Of a stretch of DNA of 64,000 nt, positions 53,473-64,000 are shown one piece after another. Location: positions 124,001 to 188,000 of the forward strand of contig NZ_VMHK01000001.1 in assembly GCF_007559275.1 (NCBI RefSeq), written 5' to 3'. This DNA comes from Bifidobacterium apousia (GTDB taxonomy: Bacteria > Actinomycetota > Actinomycetes > Actinomycetales > Bifidobacteriaceae). A program made the translations under genes and the position numbers. The notes under the pieces were generated by a model. It was given only the letters and a program-made list of their open reading frames with translations. It searched no databases and was not told where the DNA came from. Position 1 is the stretch's first letter, and the number at the start of each line of letters is the position of its first letter.

Positions 53473-54168
53473 ATGCGTTACATATTGCGGACCGAGGGTC
53501 TGACCAAGGTCTTCGGCCGCGGACAACGGGCCGTCGACCAGGTGTCTCTGCATGTCCCCGAGGGCGGAGTCTACGGGCTCCTGGGTCCAAATGGGGCTGG
53601 CAAATCCACTACTTTGAAGATGGTCACAGGCATGCTGCACCCCACTGGCGGATCCATGATTCTGGATGGGCACCCCTGGTCGCGCCGGGACCTCTACGAC
53701 ATCGGCGCCCTGATCGAGCAGCCGCCCGTCTACCCCAACCTGACGGCCCGCCAGAACCTCAAGGTGCGCACAACCCTGTTTGGCCTGCCTGATGAGCGGA
53801 TCGACCAGGCGCTCTCCATTGCCGGACTGAGCGACACAGGCTCCAAGAAAGCTGGGCAGTTCTCACTAGGCATGAAGCAGCGCCTGGGGATAGCCAACGC
53901 CATTCTGACCAAACCTCGTCTGCTGATCCTGGACGAGCCCACCAACGGGCTGGATCCGCTGGGCATCGAGGAGCTGAGGGGAATGATCCGCAGCTTCCCG
54001 CAGCAGGGGATGAGCGTGATCGTCTCAAGCCATATCCTCTCCGAGGTGTCGATCCTGGCGGATCATATCGGCATCATCGCGGACGGTCGCCTGGCCTACG
54101 AGAATGAGCTGCACGCCGGGGAGGACCTGGAGGGGCTGTTCATGGACGTGCTCAGGAGGTCACGATGA
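53473..54168 (+). CDS. Lantibiotic-immunity ABC transporter ATPase (LanF type)
   Basis: The 231-residue ATPase has Walker A GPNGAGKST, signature FSLGMKQRLG and Walker B LLILDEPTNGLD. The Q-loop position reads IGALIEQPP, with Glu in place of Gln: this E-loop is the hallmark of LanF immunity ATPases. AGGAG precedes the ATG. It is followed by two small permeases and a two-component system, the standard immunity/sensing arrangement. It should power removal of a lantibiotic or similar peptide from the membrane. Confidence 0.9.
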   Translation: MRYILRTEGLTKVFGRGQRAVDQVSLHVPEGGVYGLLGPNGAGKSTTLKMVTGMLHPTGGSMILDGHPWSRRDLYDIGALIEQPPVYPNLTARQNLKVRTTLFGLPDERIDQALSIAGLSDTGSKKAGQFSLGMKQRLGIANAILTKPRLLILDEPTNGLDPLGIEELRGMIRSFPQQGMSVIVSSHILSEVSILADHIGIIADGRLAYENELHAGEDLEGLFMDVLRRSR

Positions 54169-55001
54169 GCAACATGAATGCCAACCAATTCGTCCAGCAG
54201 GATACGGCTGAAAGAGTCAGAACCAGGGGCAACGGCATCCCCTTTGGCAGGATCCTGGCAGCGGAGATCATGAAGGGCCGGTCGGCCGCGCCCAGGCGGA
54301 TGGCCTTGGCTTTCCCTCTGGTGCTCATTGTCATCGTGGCTTGCTTCGCGTTCGGGCTGCATGTCTGGATGCCCTCCTGGGTCAACTACTGGTATGTCCT
54401 GCTCCTCCCAGCCATGACTGCTCTGATAAGCGTTGCCGTGGCCAACATCGACGGGAAGCAGCGGTGGAGGACCACTCTGGCTCTGCCTGCCGCGCCTGTT
54501 CTGGTCTGGTGGGCCAAGATCGTCTACTGCCTGCTTCTGATCGGCATCGCCACCCTGCTGGCTCTGGGTCTTTCGGCGCTCATGGTCGCCGTCTCCGGGG
54601 TCGGGGGACCGTCTGTAGTCGACTTCGTAGTCAGCGCCCTGATGCTGGTCTTGGCCTGTTCCTGGATGATACCGGCGGGATTGGCGCTGACCGCCCGGTT
54701 CGGCGTTCTGATTGGGTTCGGCCTGCCTTACATGGCGGACCTGCTGGTCTCGATCACCTTCTGGGGAAACCAACGGCTATGGCCCTTCCTGCCGCCCGCC
54801 GCCATGATCAACCTGCCGGTGCCCTTCATGAAGGTCATGCCTGATGGCGTGCCCTTGGAGACCGAAGACAACAGCCCGATCAAGGCTGCCTTGTCTGTCT
54901 TCGGTGGGCAGAGCCTGACGGCCTTGGTGGCCTGTCTGGTCTGGTTCCTGCTCCTGTCCGTCCTGACGGGAATCTGGTTCTCGCGGAAGGAGACCAACTG
55001 A
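54165..55001 (+). CDS. Lantibiotic-immunity ABC permease (LanE/MutE type)
   Basis: The 278-residue ABC-2 type permease has about six helices after a roughly 40-residue hydrophilic N-terminus. The block LAAEIMKGRSAAPRRMALAFPLVLI, followed by a WVNYWYVLLLPAMTALISV segment, is characteristic of LanE/MutE subunits. It overlaps the ATPase gene by 4 nt and ends 1 nt before the partner permease. The N-terminal extension is longer than in typical relatives. Confidence 0.87.
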   Translation: MSNMNANQFVQQDTAERVRTRGNGIPFGRILAAEIMKGRSAAPRRMALAFPLVLIVIVACFAFGLHVWMPSWVNYWYVLLLPAMTALISVAVANIDGKQRWRTTLALPAAPVLVWWAKIVYCLLLIGIATLLALGLSALMVAVSGVGGPSVVDFVVSALMLVLACSWMIPAGLALTARFGVLIGFGLPYMADLLVSITFWGNQRLWPFLPPAAMINLPVPFMKVMPDGVPLETEDNSPIKAALSVFGGQSLTALVACLVWFLLLSVLTGIWFSRKETN

Positions 55002-55002
55002 C

Positions 55003-55827
55003 ATGACTAGGATGACAGTCGGCCGGGTTGTGGCCTCGGAAATCGTACGGTTGCACGGATCGGTGCTTATCGCTATCCATGTCATCTGTGGCCTGGCGGC
55101 CGGGCTCGCCTGCGGCGCTTACTTCGCCGCAGCCCCCTATGATCCTGGTCTGGAGACTGATGCCTTCTTTCAGGTCTTGGGTGCCTTCATGCCCCTGATG
55201 GTCGCCATTGTCGTTGCCATGAACATCGAAACCGAGCGGGAGGCCGGCGACATGGCCAACCTTCTGGGGGTTCCCAGCCGCCGACTGGGTCTGGCAGCCA
55301 AGATCCTGGTGCTTTGGCTTCTGGACCTGCTGGCTCTGGCCCTGGCGGCTCTGGCTTTTTGCCTGCCCATGGCTATGGTCGGCGGACTGGATGCGCCAAT
55401 CTCGGCCCTAGCGCTCGCCACCCTGGGCATGGCCGGTGGTTCCCTCTGCCTCTACCTTTTCTCCATGGCCCTGGCCCTGCGCTTCGGTAGAAACACGACT
55501 ATCGCTATTGGGGTCCTCGGCACCGGAATATCCATCAGTTCCCTTGGCGGCCTCTTCAATGGTCTGTACAGCCATACCCTGTCAGGTGTTGGCAGCACCC
55601 CCGGAATCACCCGGTGGATACCATTCACTTGGCCTACCAGGTTCGGCTCCCTGGGAATCGAGCAGGCACTGGCCTTGACCATGCCGGGAGGTGAGGGTCT
55701 GCGTGCTTCAATCGGCGTGACGGCTCTGGATAATCTGATTCCCTGTCTGGTCTTCACCCTGACCCTGGGCTTGGCCCTCCTGCTCTGGATCGGTAGGTTC
55801 GAGGATCGTCGCAAGGTCAGCGATTAG
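55003..55827 (+). CDS. Lantibiotic-immunity ABC permease (LanG/MutG type)
   Basis: This 274-residue permease has six helices. The N-terminus VGRVVASEIVRLHGSVLIAIHVICGL and the middle block NIETEREAGDMANLLGVPSRRLGLAAKI match the LanG subunit. It completes the LanFEG complex and is the third gene of the operon. The stop is followed by a 118-bp gap holding four 16-bp repeats and then the response regulator. Confidence 0.87.
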   Translation: MTRMTVGRVVASEIVRLHGSVLIAIHVICGLAAGLACGAYFAAAPYDPGLETDAFFQVLGAFMPLMVAIVVAMNIETEREAGDMANLLGVPSRRLGLAAKILVLWLLDLLALALAALAFCLPMAMVGGLDAPISALALATLGMAGGSLCLYLFSMALALRFGRNTTIAIGVLGTGISISSLGGLFNGLYSHTLSGVGSTPGITRWIPFTWPTRFGSLGIEQALALTMPGGEGLRASIGVTALDNLIPCLVFTLTLGLALLLWIGRFEDRRKVSD

Positions 55828-55835
55828 ACTGGGTC

Positions 55836-55888
55836 GCAAGACTTCCGGTCCGCAAGAAATCAGGCTTGCAAGAATTCCGGCCCGCAAG
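55836..55888 (+). repeat. Four direct repeats with exact 16-bp period upstream of the response regulator
   Basis: The core GCAAG recurs at 55836, 55852, 55868 and 55884, exactly 16 bp apart. It is followed in each unit by related sequence (ACTTCCGG, AAATCAGG, AATTCCGG, GCGTTCAT). The array lies between the immunity permease stop (55827) and the response-regulator start (55946). It looks like a binding array for the OmpR-type regulator encoded next. Confidence 0.7.
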
Positions 55889-55945
55889 GCGTTCATTCTC
55901 AAAAGTGGCTGGGCCGAGTCGGCAAGCGCAGAAAAGGAGCCAATC

Positions 55946-56677
55946 GTGGCTGACGCGCACGCCGAAGGTTCCCTAGGGGACGATAGGCATAGGGCATCCA
56001 TCCTGGTGGTGGACGACGATCCCAGGATCACCACCCTGCTGATGGCCGCCCTGTCCAAGGACGGCTATGCCGTGACTGCGGTCAACGATTCCCGGGAGGT
56101 CGTGAGGATGGACCTGTTCTCGGTCGACCTGATCCTCTGCGATGTCATGATGCCTCACTTGGACGGCTTCGCTCTGTTGACCTCCATCAGGGAACGGGTG
56201 TCCTGCCCGATTATCTTCCTGACGGCCAAGACCGACGAGGACAGCGCGGTCCTGGCCTATGGCCTGGGGGCTGACGATTACATACGCAAGCCTTTCGGCA
56301 TTGCCGAGCTCCGAGCCAAGGTCAGGGCGAGGCTGTCCCAGGGCAGTCGGCGTGGGCGTCCGCTCCTGCGTTTCGGCTCCTTGGACATGGATCTTCAGGC
56401 GCGGCAGATCAGGGTGGACGGGCGCAACGCCAATCTGACGGATGCGGAATACCGCATATGCGCACTGCTGGCCGAACATCCAGGGCGGGCCTACGCGCCC
56501 ATGCAGATATGGGAGGCCTGCTTGGCCGCTGAGGATGACCCGGCCGCTGAGGATACGGACAGCGATGCCACGGCTGCGGTCAGAGTCCATCTGAGCAATG
56601 CCCGGCGCAAGCTCAAGGCCCTGGGGGTGGACCCCATCAGGACCATCTGGTCGGTGGGTTACCAATGGGCGGCCTGA
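55946..56677 (+). CDS. OmpR-family response regulator (LanR-like)
   Basis: The 243-residue regulator has a receiver domain with phospho-acceptor Asp66 (LILCDVMMPHLDG), acidic pair DDD near residue 30, and KTDEDSAV...ADDYIRKPFG. The C-terminal winged helix (ARQIRVDGRNANLTDAEYRICALLAEHPGRAY) is the OmpR type. It starts at GTG with AAAAGGAG upstream and overlaps the sensor gene by 13 nt. Placed after LanFEG it probably controls the immunity genes in response to the peptide. A stretch of acidic residues near 205 is an unusual insertion before the last helices. Confidence 0.9.
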   Translation: MADAHAEGSLGDDRHRASILVVDDDPRITTLLMAALSKDGYAVTAVNDSREVVRMDLFSVDLILCDVMMPHLDGFALLTSIRERVSCPIIFLTAKTDEDSAVLAYGLGADDYIRKPFGIAELRAKVRARLSQGSRRGRPLLRFGSLDMDLQARQIRVDGRNANLTDAEYRICALLAEHPGRAYAPMQIWEACLAAEDDPAAEDTDSDATAAVRVHLSNARRKLKALGVDPIRTIWSVGYQWAA

Positions 56678-58173
56678 CCGACGGCGTGCCCGAAGCGCCG
56701 GGGGAGCAGAACCCCGACGGCAAGGGCCGGCCAAGCCGCAAGGGAATGCCCATCGTTCTGCTGATCATCAGATACTTTCTCTACGTGCTGCTGATTCTGG
56801 CTCTGCTGTTCGCCGGCATGTATATGGTCTGGATAAACCTGGGGACCAGGGGTGACTTCTTCTGGGCCAACTATGGCGAACAGCATCTGGAGGAGGTGGG
56901 GCACTCCATCGGCCGTTCGACTGCTATTGACGAATCCATGATTCCCGCTGCTTACTGGTACCGAACCTATGACCATCAGGTGCATCCCACGGGGGGAGAT
57001 ATGAAGGGCGGCATGGCCAGCGAGGCCGACCAGCTGGCGGCCGACCACTGGGAGCACAGGGCATCCATGCCATCGGAAGAGCGGGAGAAGAAGACGGGAC
57101 GGCCTCTCGCCACTCGTGCAAGGCCGAATGCGACCTACCTCGTCTATGCCACAGCCGATGGGCGGCCATGCGTCCTGGCCTATCGGATTCAGCCGCAGTG
57201 GGTATCGAGGCAGGCTCGGGACCGCTATCCCAATCCCCAGAATCTTCTGCTGGTGTCTTGCGGGGCGGCCCTGCTGATCACCCTTTTGCTGGTCGGGTTG
57301 CGGGCGGCCCATGTCATATCGTCCAAGCTCAAGGTTTTCAACCAGGTGGCTGACGACATAGGGCGGCAGGATCTTGACGCATCCCTGCCCCGCAGCAACG
57401 TGCTGGAGATCAACCGGGTGCTGGGGTCCTTCGATAGGATGCGCGCCACGTTGAAGGAATCCCTGGAGAAGACCTGGATGGCCCAGGAGTCCCAGCGTCG
57501 GCAGGTGGCGGCCCTGGCACACGACCTGAAGACGCCGCTGACCATCATGCGAGGCAATGCAGACCTGCTGGGGGAGACCGGGCTCAGCCGGGAGCAGCAG
57601 TCCTACCTGGACTCCATCGAGGATGCCATCCGTGAGATGGCTGACTATGCGCAAGCCATCAGCCAGGGTTCCGTGGGCACGGCTTCAGGGCGATCCGGGG
57701 TTATGGCGGTTGCTTTGAAAGATGCGGTCAACAACCAGGCCCAAGGCTACCTGAATGCCCGGAGTCTGCGGCTTGAGCGGGATGACCGTCTAGGTTCCGA
57801 CACCGGTCAGATTTCCGGTGACGCGGCTGACCTTACCCGAGCGATCATGAACATCATCGCCAACGCGGCCGACTACTCGCCGGACCATGGCTTGGTGACG
57901 CTGACCTGGAGGCTGGAGGGTGGTCAGGAGGGCGGGCGAGCCCTAGTGGTGACCGTGCGTGACCGGGGTCCAGGTTTCAGCAGCCGGGCTCTGGCCCATG
58001 CCACGGAATGGCTCTATCAGGCTGACAGCAGTCGGCACGGCTCCAGCGGTCACCATGGCATCGGCCTGGCTGCAGCGCGGTCGACTGTGGAAAGTGCAGG
58101 AGGCCGCCTAATCCTGGCCAATGCAGCCAGTGGCGATGGCGCAGCAGTCACTGTATCTTTGCCAGTGCAGTGA
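56665..58173 (+). CDS. Sensor histidine kinase (LanK-like)
   Basis: The 502-residue kinase has a first membrane helix at about residues 28-55, an extracytoplasmic region of about 135 residues, a second helix at about 190-215, a HAMP-like linker, and the phospho-acceptor His286 in LAHDLKTPLT. The ATP-binding domain has IMNIIANAADYS (N box), VRDRGPGFS (G1) and GHHGIGLAAARSTVE (G2). It is cotranscribed with the response regulator. The immunity genes upstream make a cell-envelope peptide its likely signal. Confidence 0.9.
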   Translation: MGGLTDGVPEAPGEQNPDGKGRPSRKGMPIVLLIIRYFLYVLLILALLFAGMYMVWINLGTRGDFFWANYGEQHLEEVGHSIGRSTAIDESMIPAAYWYRTYDHQVHPTGGDMKGGMASEADQLAADHWEHRASMPSEEREKKTGRPLATRARPNATYLVYATADGRPCVLAYRIQPQWVSRQARDRYPNPQNLLLVSCGAALLITLLLVGLRAAHVISSKLKVFNQVADDIGRQDLDASLPRSNVLEINRVLGSFDRMRATLKESLEKTWMAQESQRRQVAALAHDLKTPLTIMRGNADLLGETGLSREQQSYLDSIEDAIREMADYAQAISQGSVGTASGRSGVMAVALKDAVNNQAQGYLNARSLRLERDDRLGSDTGQISGDAADLTRAIMNIIANAADYSPDHGLVTLTWRLEGGQEGGRALVVTVRDRGPGFSSRALAHATEWLYQADSSRHGSSGHHGIGLAAARSTVESAGGRLILANAASGDGAAVTVSLPVQ

Positions 58174-59314
58174 ATTCAGTGGAGCTGATACCGGTCACAG
58201 CAAACAAAGATTAGTTAGTCGTGGGCCAATAATTATGAAAACATCAATTATTTAGCAATCGCTTTAGTAATTGATTACTAAAGTTCACCATTCTTTGGCA
58301 GATCTGTACGTTACAGATAACAGAAATTATCAATCTGTAGGGATCTACATACAAAAATCAGATGACGCTGACCAGAGCGATCTGTCGCTGGAGGAGGCGA
58401 TAAGAGCGCAGGGAAAAGAAATGAATCCCGAGGTCAAATCTATTCTATAGCGAAAGCCTGATCGACGGCAAAACGGTGGTTTCGGCTTGCATCAACGGCA
58501 GACACATAGGCGAAGAGGCCTGTCTACTGCAAGACAGCAGGCATCAGCGCAGGCAGTCATACCCGATCGGAGATGCCGATGCCCGTATGACGCCTACGCA
58601 GCTGTATGAAATTGAAACTATTTGAGATGACCGGAGAAGCCTCAAGATCGTCGTCAGGGCCCGGCATGAAAAATACCGTAATACGGTTCAAAACGCACGA
58701 CCGGCATGGAATATAGGTGCCGTATTCTCTTCTTCTTTTTCGCATCATCCTATCTGGTATGAGAAGCCCAGAGCGTACGTCATGTATCAGCCCACGCCCA
58801 CTCGTTTAGGCTATTAACCAGCGGTCTGATGCCCGGTCCGGCTCCTTAAGCCCGTAGGCGATCAACATTGTCGTGATCATATAGTCGTCAAAAAACAGAT
58901 AGCTGATTGACTGTGCGGAACAGCGAGGGTCATGTCTTGAGAATGAGCAATTCCAAGATTTATTCCTGCGCGCCCTGTATAAGTTTCACGTACTGTACTC
59001 CCCGCTAAACTTTACTGCTAGGTATCCCATGATCAGTCTAGCAATGACTGCATATCATGCTGGAAACCAAGCAGCCAATAAATTTCATTAAAGATATCTT
59101 TAGAGGGCAAGACGATAGTTTGAATCGTCTGTTCCTTTGTTGAGGTGAGAACCTTGCTGCCGGTGGATCGTATTGTCCGCGCATATTTATATATAGCCAA
59201 ATAATTCACATTGGTATCAAGTTTATTAACAGCAATACATATAGGAGAGTAGGATTGGCAGACAATATTTTCCAAAGGAAACCATTGATAGTTCTATTGG
59301 CCAAAACTATGATT
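58174..59314. other. Degenerate AT-richer stretch without an intact gene
   Basis: This 1.1-kb stretch between the sensor kinase and the ABC pseudogene holds broken open frames. On the plus strand, about 58300-58450 and 58450-58625 read as two consecutive fragments in different frames; on the minus strand 59033-59275 encodes an 80-residue open frame with no ribosome site. None has a domain that I recognise. Base composition is lower in GC than the genes to the left, suggesting acquired and decaying DNA. Confidence 0.5.
58262..58283. repeat. 22-bp palindrome
   Basis: Perfect 10-nt arms CTTTAGTAAT and ATTACTAAAG flank a 2-nt centre. It resembles the operator palindrome at 16790-16807 (shared TTAGTAAT/ATTACTAA) but lies upstream of a degenerate reading frame, so it may be the operator of a lost gene. 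Confidence 0.5.
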
Positions 59315-60963
59315 CTATTTTGACGAAGCGATTGATTTTATTCTCTGTGCCGCCATGACTATTGTCTGCTCCGGGGAATTGGCATGAATGACTTGTGCGA
59401 CGAGCTCCTCGTTTTTAGCGTCTAAATGGTATGTTGTTTCGTCAAGCAGCATGATCGGCCGCCTTATGGACAACAGCCTTGCCAGGGCCAAGCGATAGCG
59501 TTCACCGCTACTCAGCAATACACCGCGTTGCCTACTGGGGTATCCAATCCATCGAAGGTGTCTCTCACTTTGGCGTGAGGTTCACCTTATTTAAGGCATT
59601 CCAGCAGCCTTCATCGGATACGCCGTTCTTGTTCATCGCCAGATTCGTTCTGGAAGAACCGGAATATATGGGGGCATCTTGTTCTACATAGCCGATCAGA
59701 GAACGTACATAAGAGGAGCTGAGAGTTGAAATATCAATGCCATTAAAGAGAACATGGCCATGATTTGGCTTATAGAATACCTTTATAAGGGCCAGCATGG
59801 TTGATTTGCCCGCTTCGGATGGTCCGACTATCGCGTAGACGACGCCGCCTTTCATATGCACGCCCGCTTCATTCAGTTGGAGCCCGCCACGATTGTTCCG
59901 TGCGTCATCATACGGAATATCAGCATGGTCAAGATCGATGTCAATCTGATCGGAGTTGGTGACCTTCCTTTGGACCCTACTGGATACTGCTCATGCTGAT
60001 GTCGCATCTTCGGTCGGCATTCTCATTATCGCTTGAATGCTGGAGTTCGCGCCCAACGCTCTGAACAGTCTGCTATATGTCGAAGAAAGTGTCGCCATAG
60101 GCGTGGGCATCATTTCTAGGTACATAGAGAAGTTACCAGTTGCTGAACAGTCATCACTCCTTTGGCCACTTGGAAAGCGCCGATTCCCGATACGACCATC
60201 AGGCACAACTGCATTAAGGCCATTCCTGATGGCCATATCAGTGACTGCTTCTTTGAAATTAGACGACCGGATGTGCACGCTTGCCTGGCTTCTCGCCGAT
60301 TTTATTGGTCTCACGCTCCGTGGCGTCGAAAACCCTGATCCTTTTCAAACTCATCAAAGCATCAGTGGCTGCAGACGTCATATCTCCTATGGCCGTTTGA
60401 GCCCCTCTGGAGCAGTCTCGTAATTTTCCGGATAAGACTACCAGTAAACCGACAGTAACAAGACAGGTCGAAAGAGAGATAACGAACATGACGGGACTGA
60501 TTATGACCATTCCCACACACGCGCCTATGAACACCAGTAAAGTGCCAAAAACTTCTGGCAATTATCGGTCAGCAATCGCTTCAGTTCATTTGTATCAGAT
60601 GAAATAATAGAAATTACGTTGCCTGTATGCGACTGGTCCAGATCTTTGAACGGCAAATGCAGAATATGCATTACTAGAGACCGTCTCATATCGTTCAACA
60701 GCAGGTAAGCGTCAAAAGAAGTGATTGCTGCGCCGGACAGAAACACTCCTGCCAACGCTATTAGAGGGGCACTGCGGATCGCATGTTATGCTGCACGCGT
60801 CCAAGAATGACATTGACAAGCTGTGGCTGAGCCAGATTTAAGAGGGCGCTCGCTATACTTAGCAGACTAACCGTGAATAAAACACCCTTATGGATTTCAA
60901 AAGGCGTAGCACGTCTATCAAAGATGCGGTTTTCTCATTACTATTCCGCTTGTGTGGCGACAT
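59315..60963 (-). pseudogene. Decayed ABC exporter (membrane domain plus ATPase domain)
   Basis: Read on the minus strand, an ATG at 60963 with AAAGGACG upstream opens a half-transporter that is now split over at least five frames. There are N-terminal pieces, a membrane fragment (60755-60525, with DLDQSHTGNVISIISSDTNE), another membrane fragment (60561-60259), a linker (60314-59991), an ATPase piece with Walker A GPSEAGKST (59861-59565), and a last piece with signature LSSGERYRLALAR and Walker B IMLLDETTYHLD (59518-59315). It starts 23 bp after the intact permease gene and reads as the last gene of the same operon. Related two-domain exporters carry lantibiotics or drugs. Confidence 0.8.
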
Positions 60964-60985
60964 TTTCGTCCTTTGTTGGGAGTGG

Positions 60986-62416
60986 TTACTCACCGACTGC
61001 ACGTGATATGACCCTCACAGAATCCTCGGAACGCGCGCACAGCGCCTGCACGCCTGTGACGAGGGCGCCTACGACAATAGCGAGGAGTGCGATGACCGCC
61101 CAATATCCCCATTGAACGCTTATCTTTGCGCTTCCCAGATATCGTTGCAGCATGAAGGCGGTGCCGCAGGTGCTGAGCAGTGTGATGACGAAGGCGAGCA
61201 GCACCGAGGTGACCATCGAAATGAGACCATCGAGGGCTCCCAAAATGCGCAACTGTCCGGTACTGGCACCGGATACGTATGTCAGCGCCAGATCCAGGCG
61301 TCGCCCTCGTGCGGTGATCATCAGTCCGGAGATTGCGCCCACCAAAGCGATGATGAGCGCAGGGCCGAGCATGGCCATCAGGTTCGTCAGCATGTGTGGG
61401 TTCACGTTCATGGAATGGCCGTTGCTGGCGAAATTCTTGAGGCTGTCGGTCAGCGTATGCAACACACCAGAGAAAGTCATGAGCAACGACAAGCCGGCCG
61501 TCATGGGAATGATGGTCGCGTTCTGTCGTTGGATCCTCCCAACGGCCTGCTGCCTAGCGAGTTTCCAGGTGCTGAATGGCAGGGGGAGAAGATGCGTCCA
61601 TCCTTTGGTGAACCAGTGCATGACATAGGGAGCCAGAACAGCCAATGCGAAGATCAGGAGGAACATGCCTCCCATGGAGAACCCAATGAATCCTGTCACT
61701 CTGGACTCTATGGGATTCCTGCCGGAAATGTGCGTGGCGAGCTCGCCAGAGTCTATCTTGCGTGTAGCTGTCCCCGGGATGATGAGCGCGCATATCGCTC
61801 CCACGAGCAACGATGCGCCTAGCAGAACACGGAATGCGTTCACTTGTCTCGGCGGGTTTTGTGACTGCCGAAGCGCCTCTATCGGCCTGATCTTGGATAG
61901 TGTGCGCACGGTCAGCACTGTGCCTGCAAGGACGGCGACTCCGGCAATGGCCAACCCAGTGCCGATGGATGCCAGCAGCTGGGTTGCTTGATACGTCAGT
62001 TTCAGCTCGAATGCTCTGGCCAGGAGGTCGAACAGATATGGTGCTGCCAGCGGCGTCAGGAGGGATGACGCTACTGCTGCCAAGATGAATAGGACGATGA
62101 TGATAGCCAGATTCCCGAAGAGCAGCTGCCAGGGCGTGGCGCCTTGAAGGACCAGCAATGCTAGTTGGTGCCTGCGCTGGTTCAGAGCGGCGGTCACGAC
62201 CCACAGCATCACGAACACGGCTATGACCACGCTGAACAGCATTGCTGGGCCGGAAAGGTTGGCGCCTAACCCGGCATCCGGTCCGTGGTAAGCGGCATCA
62301 ATAGCCCTGCGCGCGGCGACGATAGTGCACACAGCGGTCTGGGAAACGATTAGTGACAGCCATACGCCGGCCCATACGGCCGGGGCTGCTTTCAGATCAG
62401 AGAGTGCGCCCCTCAT
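60986..62416 (-). CDS. FtsX-type ABC permease beside the lanthipeptide-like gene
   Basis: The 476-residue membrane protein has about eight to ten helices and two FtsX-like domains, the first after VVTAALNQRRHQLALLVLQGATPWQLL and the second after LMITARGRRLDLALTYVSGASTGQL. The start overlaps the ATPase stop by 4 nt, so the two form one transporter of the MacB/BceAB class. These systems export or expel peptides and antimicrobial compounds. It lies downstream of the putative class III lanthipeptide precursor on the same strand, which makes it a candidate exporter or self-protection pump. Confidence 0.87.
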   Translation of the reverse strand: MRGALSDLKAAPAVWAGVWLSLIVSQTAVCTIVAARRAIDAAYHGPDAGLGANLSGPAMLFSVVIAVFVMLWVVTAALNQRRHQLALLVLQGATPWQLLFGNLAIIIVLFILAAVASSLLTPLAAPYLFDLLARAFELKLTYQATQLLASIGTGLAIAGVAVLAGTVLTVRTLSKIRPIEALRQSQNPPRQVNAFRVLLGASLLVGAICALIIPGTATRKIDSGELATHISGRNPIESRVTGFIGFSMGGMFLLIFALAVLAPYVMHWFTKGWTHLLPLPFSTWKLARQQAVGRIQRQNATIIPMTAGLSLLMTFSGVLHTLTDSLKNFASNGHSMNVNPHMLTNLMAMLGPALIIALVGAISGLMITARGRRLDLALTYVSGASTGQLRILGALDGLISMVTSVLLAFVITLLSTCGTAFMLQRYLGSAKISVQWGYWAVIALLAIVVGALVTGVQALCARSEDSVRVISRAVGE

Positions 62417-63114
62417 ATGCGGGCCCCGCTCTCCGTATCAGCGTTCAGCACGTGGCCATCACGGACCTCAACGATCTGGTCGCACTGTCCGGCTACCTCT
62501 CCACTGTGGGTCACTATTACTACGGTCCTGCCCGCATCCATAGCCAGGCTTTTGAACACCTGCATGACCTTGGCGCCAGATTCCTGATCCAAGGCTCCAG
62601 TCGGCTCGTCGGCGAAAATGATATCTGCATCGGAGAGCAGCACTCGTGCAAGCGCGACACGTTGCTGCTCTCCGCCTGAGAGCATCGTCACGCTCCTTTT
62701 TTTCTCGTTTGCCAATCCGAAGTACCGCAACATCTCATCCGCTTTTTGCTTGGGGAGTCGACGGCCGCGCAGGGTGAATGGCAGCGCGAGGTTCTCCTCC
62801 ACCGTCATGCTCGTGATCAGGTTGTAGGACTGAAACACGAATCCCAGATGCCGACGCCGAAACCGAGTGAGCGCGGACGCTCGCATATGCGTGATGTCAT
62901 GCCCTAGAAGGGAGATGCTTCCGGATGTCGCACGTTCCAATCCCGAAAGGCAGTACAGCAAGGTGGACTTTCCGCTGCCTGAGGGGCCGACAATCCCCGT
63001 GATTCTTCCGGGCTCAGCATGGAAGTCGACATGGTCGAGGATGGTGATCGAATCATCCTTCCTCGGAGTCACCGTCATTGTCAATCCATTTGAACTCACT
63101 GAAGCACCACTCAT
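62413..63114 (-). CDS. MacB/LolD-type ABC ATPase
   Basis: This 233-residue ATPase has Walker A GPSGSGKST, Q-loop VFQSYNLITSMT, signature [13 protein letters not shown], Walker B IIFADEPTGALD and switch His VTHS. It belongs to the group that pairs with FtsX permeases. I take the ATG at 63114 (GGGAG 7 nt upstream) rather than a GTG one codon earlier. It lies 198 bp downstream of the lanthipeptide-like precursor gene and overlaps its permease by 4 nt. Confidence 0.9.
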   Translation of the reverse strand: MSGASVSSNGLTMTVTPRKDDSITILDHVDFHAEPGRITGIVGPSGSGKSTLLYCLSGLERATSGSISLLGHDITHMRASALTRFRRRHLGFVFQSYNLITSMTVEENLALPFTLRGRRLPKQKADEMLRYFGLANEKKRSVTMLSGGEQQRVALARVLLSDADIIFADEPTGALDQESGAKVMQVFKSLAMDAGRTVVIVTHSGEVAGQCDQIVEVRDGHVLNADTESGARI

Positions 63115-63312
63115 CACCGTTCTCCCATCATCGCCGTTCTCGCGACTTATAAATCTTCATCAGAATATTGCTATGGATGCCATACAAGGATGGCGCCCAT
63201 AGACTTACATGACTGTTGTCCCTGCCGTCATCAGGGCAAAAATGACAGCCCATGCCATTTTGGTGAATGCGTCATCGCAGTGGCATATTTTTGTGGATTA
63301 GCTGCAGGTCCA

Positions 63313-63432
63313 TCAACTCCAGATATTATCATGCCCACCGCCGTGGCATGCAAATATGCTGACGCCGCTGTGATGAGCGGCTTCATCATTCATGGCGATA
63401 TTACTATTCTGCAGATCGATAATGTTGTGCAT
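63313..63432 (-). CDS. Putative class III lanthipeptide precursor peptide
   Basis: This 39-residue peptide begins at an ATG at 63432. Residues 4-8 are IIDLQ, the hydrophobic-hydrophobic-Asp/Glu-Leu-Gln leader motif recognised by class III synthetases (compare LFDLQ in RamS and ILELQ in labyrinthopeptin precursors). After an acidic segment (NDEAAHH), residues 22-29 read SGVSIFAC, i.e. Ser-x2-Ser-x3-Cys, the ring motif that becomes labionin or lanthionine (RamS has SRASLLLC). The tail is HGGGHDNIWS. GAGAGGAG lies about 13 nt upstream, a long spacing. The operon continues with an intact and a decayed ABC transporter. No LanKC gene is seen in the window. Confidence 0.65.
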   Translation of the reverse strand: MHNIIDLQNSNIAMNDEAAHHSGVSIFACHGGGHDNIWS

Positions 63433-63686
63433 TTTGTCCGTCTCTCTCCTCTCTTTCTCGTGTTTAGTGCTATTTCCAATGGTGTCTCCACTGAAAGGAT
63501 CGTTAGGGCAGACGGCTGGCAAGAACTACCATGGTTGGCCTATAAGACTATTTACTGCTCAGATAACGCCAGCTGAGCCTGTCGAATAATCACAAGAGGG
63601 TCTTAAATAGGATTCTCAGGGCAGATAAGGGTTTTTATGCCAGATGAGCCCAAATTGATTAAAGCTTTTCTAATGAAGATCTAGTA

Positions 63687-63704
63687 TTTTTTTTGGGGGG
63701 GGGG
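63687..63704 (+). repeat. T8-G10 homopolymer tract
   Basis: Eight T followed by ten G lie in the divergent promoter region between the lanthipeptide-like gene and the gene at the right edge. Such tracts slip during replication and can switch or tune expression; they are also prone to sequencing error. Confidence 0.7.
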
Positions 63705-63937: not shown

Positions 63938-64000
63938 ATGACTGGGTTGACCAGCGATCCCAAGCATGAGCAATCGACAGATACCGGCGTGATCCCGACT
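63938..64000 (+). CDS. 5' end of an unidentified gene running out of the window
   Basis: An ATG at 63938 with AGGAG 6 nt upstream opens 21 codons to the right edge (first residues MTGLTSDPKHEQ). The same frame is open back to an ATG at 63776, which has a poorer site, so the true start is uncertain. The visible part is hydrophilic and too short to identify. It is divergent from the lanthipeptide-like gene and could be part of the same cluster. Confidence 0.45.
   Translation, partial: MTGLTSDPKHEQSTDTGVIPT

Follow-up and report, generated by a model that had tools for sequence, protein, structure and literature searches.

A probable class III lanthipeptide precursor gene within the remains of a decayed cluster in Bifidobacterium apousia

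Described class III systems and related clusters of the family

According to excerpts of PMC7268733, Sx2Sx3C is the characteristic core motif of class III lanthipeptides and LxLQ is a common motif of their leaders. In Streptomyces the nor cluster, which makes noursin, encodes a transporter and an S9 peptidase besides NorKC and NorA (PMC10206099, in excerpt). The locus described here shares with SapB/AmfS and noursin-type Streptomyces clusters, as excerpted there, a LanKC synthetase, a lanA precursor with an LxLQ-type leader, an S9 peptidase and a transporter; unlike in those clusters, its LanKC, exporter and peptidase are broken and its peptide matches no SapB/AmfS or RamS model. Family III 3 of Streptococcus pneumoniae, as described in excerpts of PMC7268733, likewise combines an Sx2Sx3C core with a prolyl oligopeptidase, LanPB; it differs in belonging to the Firmicutes and in having a CAAX protease, and the likeness is one of description and not of sequence.

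Excerpts of PMC4289311, PMC11840169 and PMC11218132 class bifidobacterial lanthipeptides as I, II or IV. Class III and class IV are reportedly not told apart by antiSMASH 5.0 (PMC7268733, in excerpt), so some of those class IV assignments might be class III. Class III has been reported in bee-gut Lactobacillus Firm5 (PMC10673953, in excerpt). The excerpts of PMC10673953, PMC11840169, PMC4289311, PMC11218132, PMC10206099 and PMC7268733 describe no class III lanthipeptide of Bifidobacterium, though other papers might, and a literature search combining Bifidobacterium asteroides with lanthipeptide returned nothing.

Within the family Bifidobacteriaceae, genome G056 (stretch L037; also G090, G107 and G151) carries a cluster in the order ABC exporter, LanKC, lanA (leader MGNNVLDFQ), S9 peptidase, ABC ATPase and FtsX permease, where the labels other than LanKC were tested with Pfam. 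Its LanKC scores 645.9 bits and that of G077 678 bits with the class III equivalog NF038151 (cut-off 575), so that both pass. As at our locus, LanKC is followed directly by lanA and the S9 peptidase, ABC ATPase and FtsX genes are present; the G056 cluster differs in its complete LanKC and in the asparagine-synthase-like and transglutaminase-like genes upstream. These encode PF00733 and PF13471 proteins and lie with the ABC exporter just upstream of LanKC (L037:3452-7497). The pair recalls lasso-peptide genes, and a lasso cluster is possibly fused to the class III cluster. The cluster of G077 (L038:8069-12637) has a complete LanKC and a precursor (MKWILELQ...) above the NCBIfam and Pfam cut-offs. 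By eye, arabinose-metabolism-like genes flank it and an ABC exporter and two-component genes come next; it is a better candidate for a living product.

In the same genus, contig 7 of G008 (L099) carries ATPase, FtsX, exporter, a C-terminal LanKC fragment and, 2 bases after the LanKC stop, lanA (MNVLNLQ...). These components recur at our locus, with the differences that in G008 the exporter is intact (600 aa), the transport genes precede LanKC and the core peptide is another one. The G008 LanKC is cut to 192 aa but open, unlike the stop-ridden scrap described below. Similar decayed loci with a RamC_N fragment, ATPase, FtsX and exporter are present in G009, G018, G022 and G025. They make up a second decayed class III locus distinct from ours (L021, L020:3800-8340, L022 and L023, respectively; >99% identity), bounded by repeats that end small contigs. 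These repeats were taken for insertion sequences by eye; one ORF searched with Pfam had no match. The LanKC fragment of G009 continues into what reads as part of a lanA core (TSYSDTSNVLC), as if a deletion had fused both genes. Another C-terminal LanKC scrap is seen in G012 (L100:7591-7743; 51 aa, 43% identical to the G100 LanKC, E=1e-9), with no precursor found just downstream.

The precursor ORF and the LanKC scrap

The window is the whole analysed stretch of 64,000 nucleotides (positions 124,001 to 188,000 of contig NZ_VMHK01000001.1), and coordinates are given within it. The features around the precursor ORF are as follows.

63313-63432, minus strand: lanA, putative class III lanthipeptide precursor ORF of 39 aa plus stop, with IIDLQ leader and S-x2-S-x3-C core
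63446-63450, minus strand: AGGAG, possible but weak ribosome-binding site, 13 nt before the ATG
63481-63690, minus strand: lanKC scrap, C-terminal end of the cyclase domain, with two TGA and two TAG codons in frame
63685-63704, plus strand: TA-T8-G10 homopolymer tract inside the LanKC remnant

Read from 63432 to 63313 on the minus strand, the lanA ORF translates as MHNIIDLQNSNIAMNDEAAHHSGVSIFACHGGGHDNIWS, followed by a stop. The original prediction of a 39-residue ORF with IIDLQ at residues 4-8 and a Ser22-x2-Ser25-x3-Cys29 core is correct in each respect. The leader is of the LxLQ type with I replacing the first L, and the core, S22-G-V-S25-I-F-A-C29, fits Sx2Sx3C. The spacing of Ser, Ser and Cys is presumably like that in RamS. 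Alignment with four precursors of relatives leaves M1, Q8, S22, S25 and C29 invariant. The core contains one S-x2-S-x3-C, where the precursors of G008, G056 and G077 look to have two. A noursin-type histidine crosslink was considered for the His-rich core and dropped, the core being without Thr and there being no LanKC to judge it by.

The window contains 1184 start-to-stop ORFs of 30-60 aa when every alternative start is counted, and the two motifs come together in lanA alone. First-order Markov shuffling produced the motif pair twice in 40 shuffles of the window (0.05 per window) and eight times in 400 shuffles of the 58.2-63.76 kb region (0.02 each). About 1.6 occurrences are thus expected in the 2.06 Mb genome and the pair, though unlikely for a single window, is not decisive alone. 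The peptide matched nothing in Pfam and NCBIfam, including the curated precursor models NF038159, NF038154, NF033212 and PF19402; the G077 precursor passes NF038159, NF033212 and PF19402, while those of G008, G056 and G028 fall below the cut-offs. The long spacing of the ribosome-binding site, which had been recognised as a weak point, is real: AGGAG ends 13 nt before the ATG. A promoter and terminator scan of 62.9-64.0 kb gave matches at chance level, with no clear promoter. The shuffle rates, the absence of a model match and the site spacing would be in keeping with a dead class III cluster whose true lanA was lost together with LanKC, leaving a chance ORF in our window. We regard this as improbable, as the ORF stands right after the LanKC C-terminus, which is the position of lanA in G056 and G008, has an LQ leader as the precursors of those two genomes do, and keeps the invariant Q, S, S and C.

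The evidence for a LanKC at this place comes from several searches. With the C-terminal LanKC fragment of G008 as query against the whole genome, 63690-63481 on the minus strand matched at 45% identity (E=6.4e-13). In tblastn the intact LanKC of G056 matched 63606-63499 of the window, minus strand (E=0.016; 44% identity along 36 aa). Six places in the whole genome matched a profile built from four LanKCs; five of these matches cover kinase positions only and the sixth is the scrap upstream of lanA (model positions 828-874 of 883, E=0.027). When 27 genomes of the genus were searched, the scrap was found in all seven that carry the peptide and also in G008, the match being longer in G011 and G019 (residues 83-180 of the G008 fragment); 18 of the remaining 19 gave nothing with the G008 fragment and G002 gave a weak match (E=0.049). 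Judged from these matches, the scrap is a mark of descent from a LanKC cluster. Since it adjoins lanA on the same strand, in the LanKC-lanA order of G008 and G056, we take lanA to be a real class III precursor gene, and we estimate a probability of roughly 0.86 that it is the precursor gene of a class III cluster that has lost its function. The assignment as a class III precursor is thus upheld in that a precursor gene has LanKC scrap upstream and partner genes or their remains downstream, but not in the sense of a working locus.

The lanA frame is open across 39 codons as against four stops in the 70 codons of the scrap, which weakly hints that lanA is possibly not a plain relic but younger or under stronger constraint (about 11% by chance). 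The homopolymer tract inside the LanKC remnant varies in length among the seven genomes (T5 or T8; G10, G11 or G14). In its T8-G10 form it lies 30 bases ahead of a P-type cation ATPase gene that starts with GTG, and it could vary the expression of this ATPase.

The synthetase was looked for elsewhere as well. The LanC-like model PF05147 had no match in the whole genome. It scores 27.9 and 53.6 bits with the intact LanKCs of G056 and G077, and 16.8 bits, below the cut-off, with the G008 fragment; it therefore finds a whole cyclase but misses scrap. RamC_N (PF25816, cut-off 27) gave nothing above 12.5 bits in the genome, and the match with that score (G000:C6:691968-692102, with two stops) was put down to chance, tblastn with two LanKCs having found nothing there. 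Across the 27 genus genomes RamC_N passes its cut-off in four, all in frames of 118-214 aa, and none contains an intact LanKC. The original prediction had pointed to the DNA beyond position 64000 for a LanKC gene. What follows there is a P-type cation ATPase (L002:11734-15069) and then a 1278-aa protein with the look of a helicase (by eye), and tblastn of two LanKCs (L002, L003, L024) matched the scrap only. Lack of any LanKC gene in the genome had been named beforehand as a result that would speak against the precursor, and LanKC is indeed present only as scrap with four in-frame stops.

One may ask whether the system is alive, with a LanKC elsewhere in the genome or outside the assembly modifying the peptide. 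The lanA gene is intact and 14 contigs leave room for a gap; the assembly is 99.98% complete, which makes a missed LanKC unlikely, though possible. Given also the lack of any LanKC or LanC-like match, the broken exporter, and the absence in the 27 genus genomes of any open frame longer than 214 aa with RamC_N above its cut-off, a living system seems very improbable. Production of the compound by this Bifidobacterium has very likely ceased.

The remaining genes of the tract and their neighbourhood

Downstream of lanA, the tract continues with the following features, and a further unit lies on the opposite strand.

62413-63117, minus strand: ABC transporter ATPase, 234 aa, intact (PF00005)
60986-62416, minus strand: FtsX-type permease, 476 aa, intact (PF02687)
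59330-60785, minus strand: ABC exporter, broken into membrane and ATPase pieces that contain stops and run out of frame in places
59054-59284, minus strand: S9 peptidase scrap (prolyl oligopeptidase family, C-terminal end), its 77 aligned residues being 68% identical to the intact 607-aa peptidase of G011
53473-58173, plus strand: LanFEG-type ABC transporter, response regulator and histidine kinase, separate from the class III remnant

The minus-strand order is thus LanKC scrap, lanA, ATPase, FtsX, broken exporter and S9 peptidase scrap, a gene set which is that of the G056 class III cluster. ABC transporter genes had been predicted to accompany the ORF, and the ATPase and FtsX genes do lie downstream on the same strand, across a gap of 195 bases. 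The ATPase is 47% identical to the ATPase of the LanKC-fragment locus of G018. PF00664 and PF00005 of the exporter fall in separate small ORFs, and tblastn with the intact 600-aa G008 exporter matches these pieces; no intact exporter for the lanA peptide was found in the tract. In G011 the same tract retains a 532-aa exporter ORF and a 607-aa Peptidase_S9 protein. The G+C content of the remnant at 58.2-61.0 kb is 46.7%, compared with 56% in 1-53 kb, and a low-G+C stretch with no clear gene (58174-59050) separates the remnant from the LanFEG-LanRK unit.

If it worked as known class III clusters do, the ancestral LanKC would have bound the IIDLQ leader, phosphorylated Ser22 and Ser25, eliminated the phosphates and closed a lanthionine or labionin on Cys29. 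The ABC exporter would then have carried the product out and the S9 peptidase removed leader residues, while the ATPase-FtsX pair may have given immunity or helped export. With LanKC and the peptidase reduced to scrap and the exporter broken, the lanA peptide is not cyclised or exported by its own cluster.

FtsX relatives at E 1e-15 are present in 31 of the 189 family genomes, and the closest ATPase-FtsX pairs (53-72% identical; L081, L082, L086, L088 and others) have no LanKC match in the stretches fetched. A pair of this type is common, often without a nearby LanKC, and so is by itself no evidence of a lanthipeptide cluster; nor does its position prove a role in immunity.

A LanFEG-LanRK set had been described as adjoining the ORF. 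The genes are real, and tentatively of the LanFEG type: LanF (53473-54168) scores 337.1 bits with TIGR03740, above the cut-off of 309.75, and the MutE- and MutG-type permeases match at 105.8 and 93.8 bits, below cut-offs of 145.2 and 117.2. Their association with the ORF is not supported; the set is a separate unit encoded on the opposite strand. Only one of the six other carriers (G011) was found to have DNA resembling 53.4-58.2 kb beside the tract, the other five having been checked in 19-kb stretches extending 7.2-8.3 kb beyond it.

Spread, selection and meaning

An identical lanA protein is encoded in seven of the 27 genus genomes, and a match at E 10 or better in eight. Among the 189 family genomes nine have peptide matches at 0.1 or better, seven being the identical copies; the weak matches in G083 (E=0.035) and G114 (E=0.07) were taken as chance, as were those within the genus in G022 (E=0.10) and at a second place in G007 (E=0.52). 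The leader and the Ser/Ser/Cys positions are therefore kept in seven genomes, but this conservation says little because the loci are nearly identical DNA and the gene has one variable site. Over 59285-63700 identity to the window is 99.3-99.4% in five of the other six carriers and 95.6% in G011. Identity per 300-base bin drops to 78-97% between 65.4 and 67 kb; on the left, similarity stops abruptly at 58801 in five of the six. Five of the carrier loci matched B. mellis, B. asteroides (two records), B. choladohabitans and B. mizhiense. This pattern suggests that the tract may have spread recently between species by recombination.

The single variable site of lanA in the seven genomes is silent, and with one site only, selection on the peptide is not measurable. 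FtsX has 10 variable sites, nine synonymous and one non-synonymous (P 1.0e-4 to 2.7e-4 for a transition bias of 2 to 8, in a test which treats sites as independent), and from this pattern it is under purifying selection. The ATPase has 12 variable sites, eight synonymous and four non-synonymous (P 0.005 to 0.012); two of the latter are in one codon and one is a stop in G018, showing that the ATPase-FtsX pair is not retained universally. The 9:1 synonymous excess in FtsX fits retained immunity; as a guess, immunity was probably the pair's function and may be so still.

It is possible, though unlikely, that after the loss of LanKC the unmodified peptide, or part of it, stayed on as a ligand of ATPase-FtsX or as a signal to it. 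The lanA, ATPase and FtsX genes are the open ones left amid broken ones, the tract is common to seven species representatives and FtsX is under selection, all of which would agree with such a co-option; the one variable site of lanA, the weak ribosome site, the lack of a clear promoter and of an intact exporter in the tract argue against it. A likewise unlikely and speculative course of events would be that LanKC, exporter and peptidase broke, that lanA and the ATPase-FtsX pair were then kept and passed, as a nearly identical tract, between several bee-associated Bifidobacterium species, and that the unmodified peptide or the transporter newly senses or resists the lanthipeptides of neighbours. 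We favour the precursor gene of a cluster that lost its function: the system is of a known kind and a relic here.

Class III lanthipeptide clusters occur in the family Bifidobacteriaceae, where 12 of 189 genomes match RamC_N with E no higher than 0.001, 11 of them above the cut-off, and both LanKCs tested pass NF038151. In the genus only broken clusters were seen (no intact one in 27 genomes). Motif-based precursor mining would flag lanA as a product to seek, while the LanKC scrap marks it as a relic in this strain. The retained ATPase-FtsX pair makes it possible to test whether immunity has outlived production in a bee-gut community.
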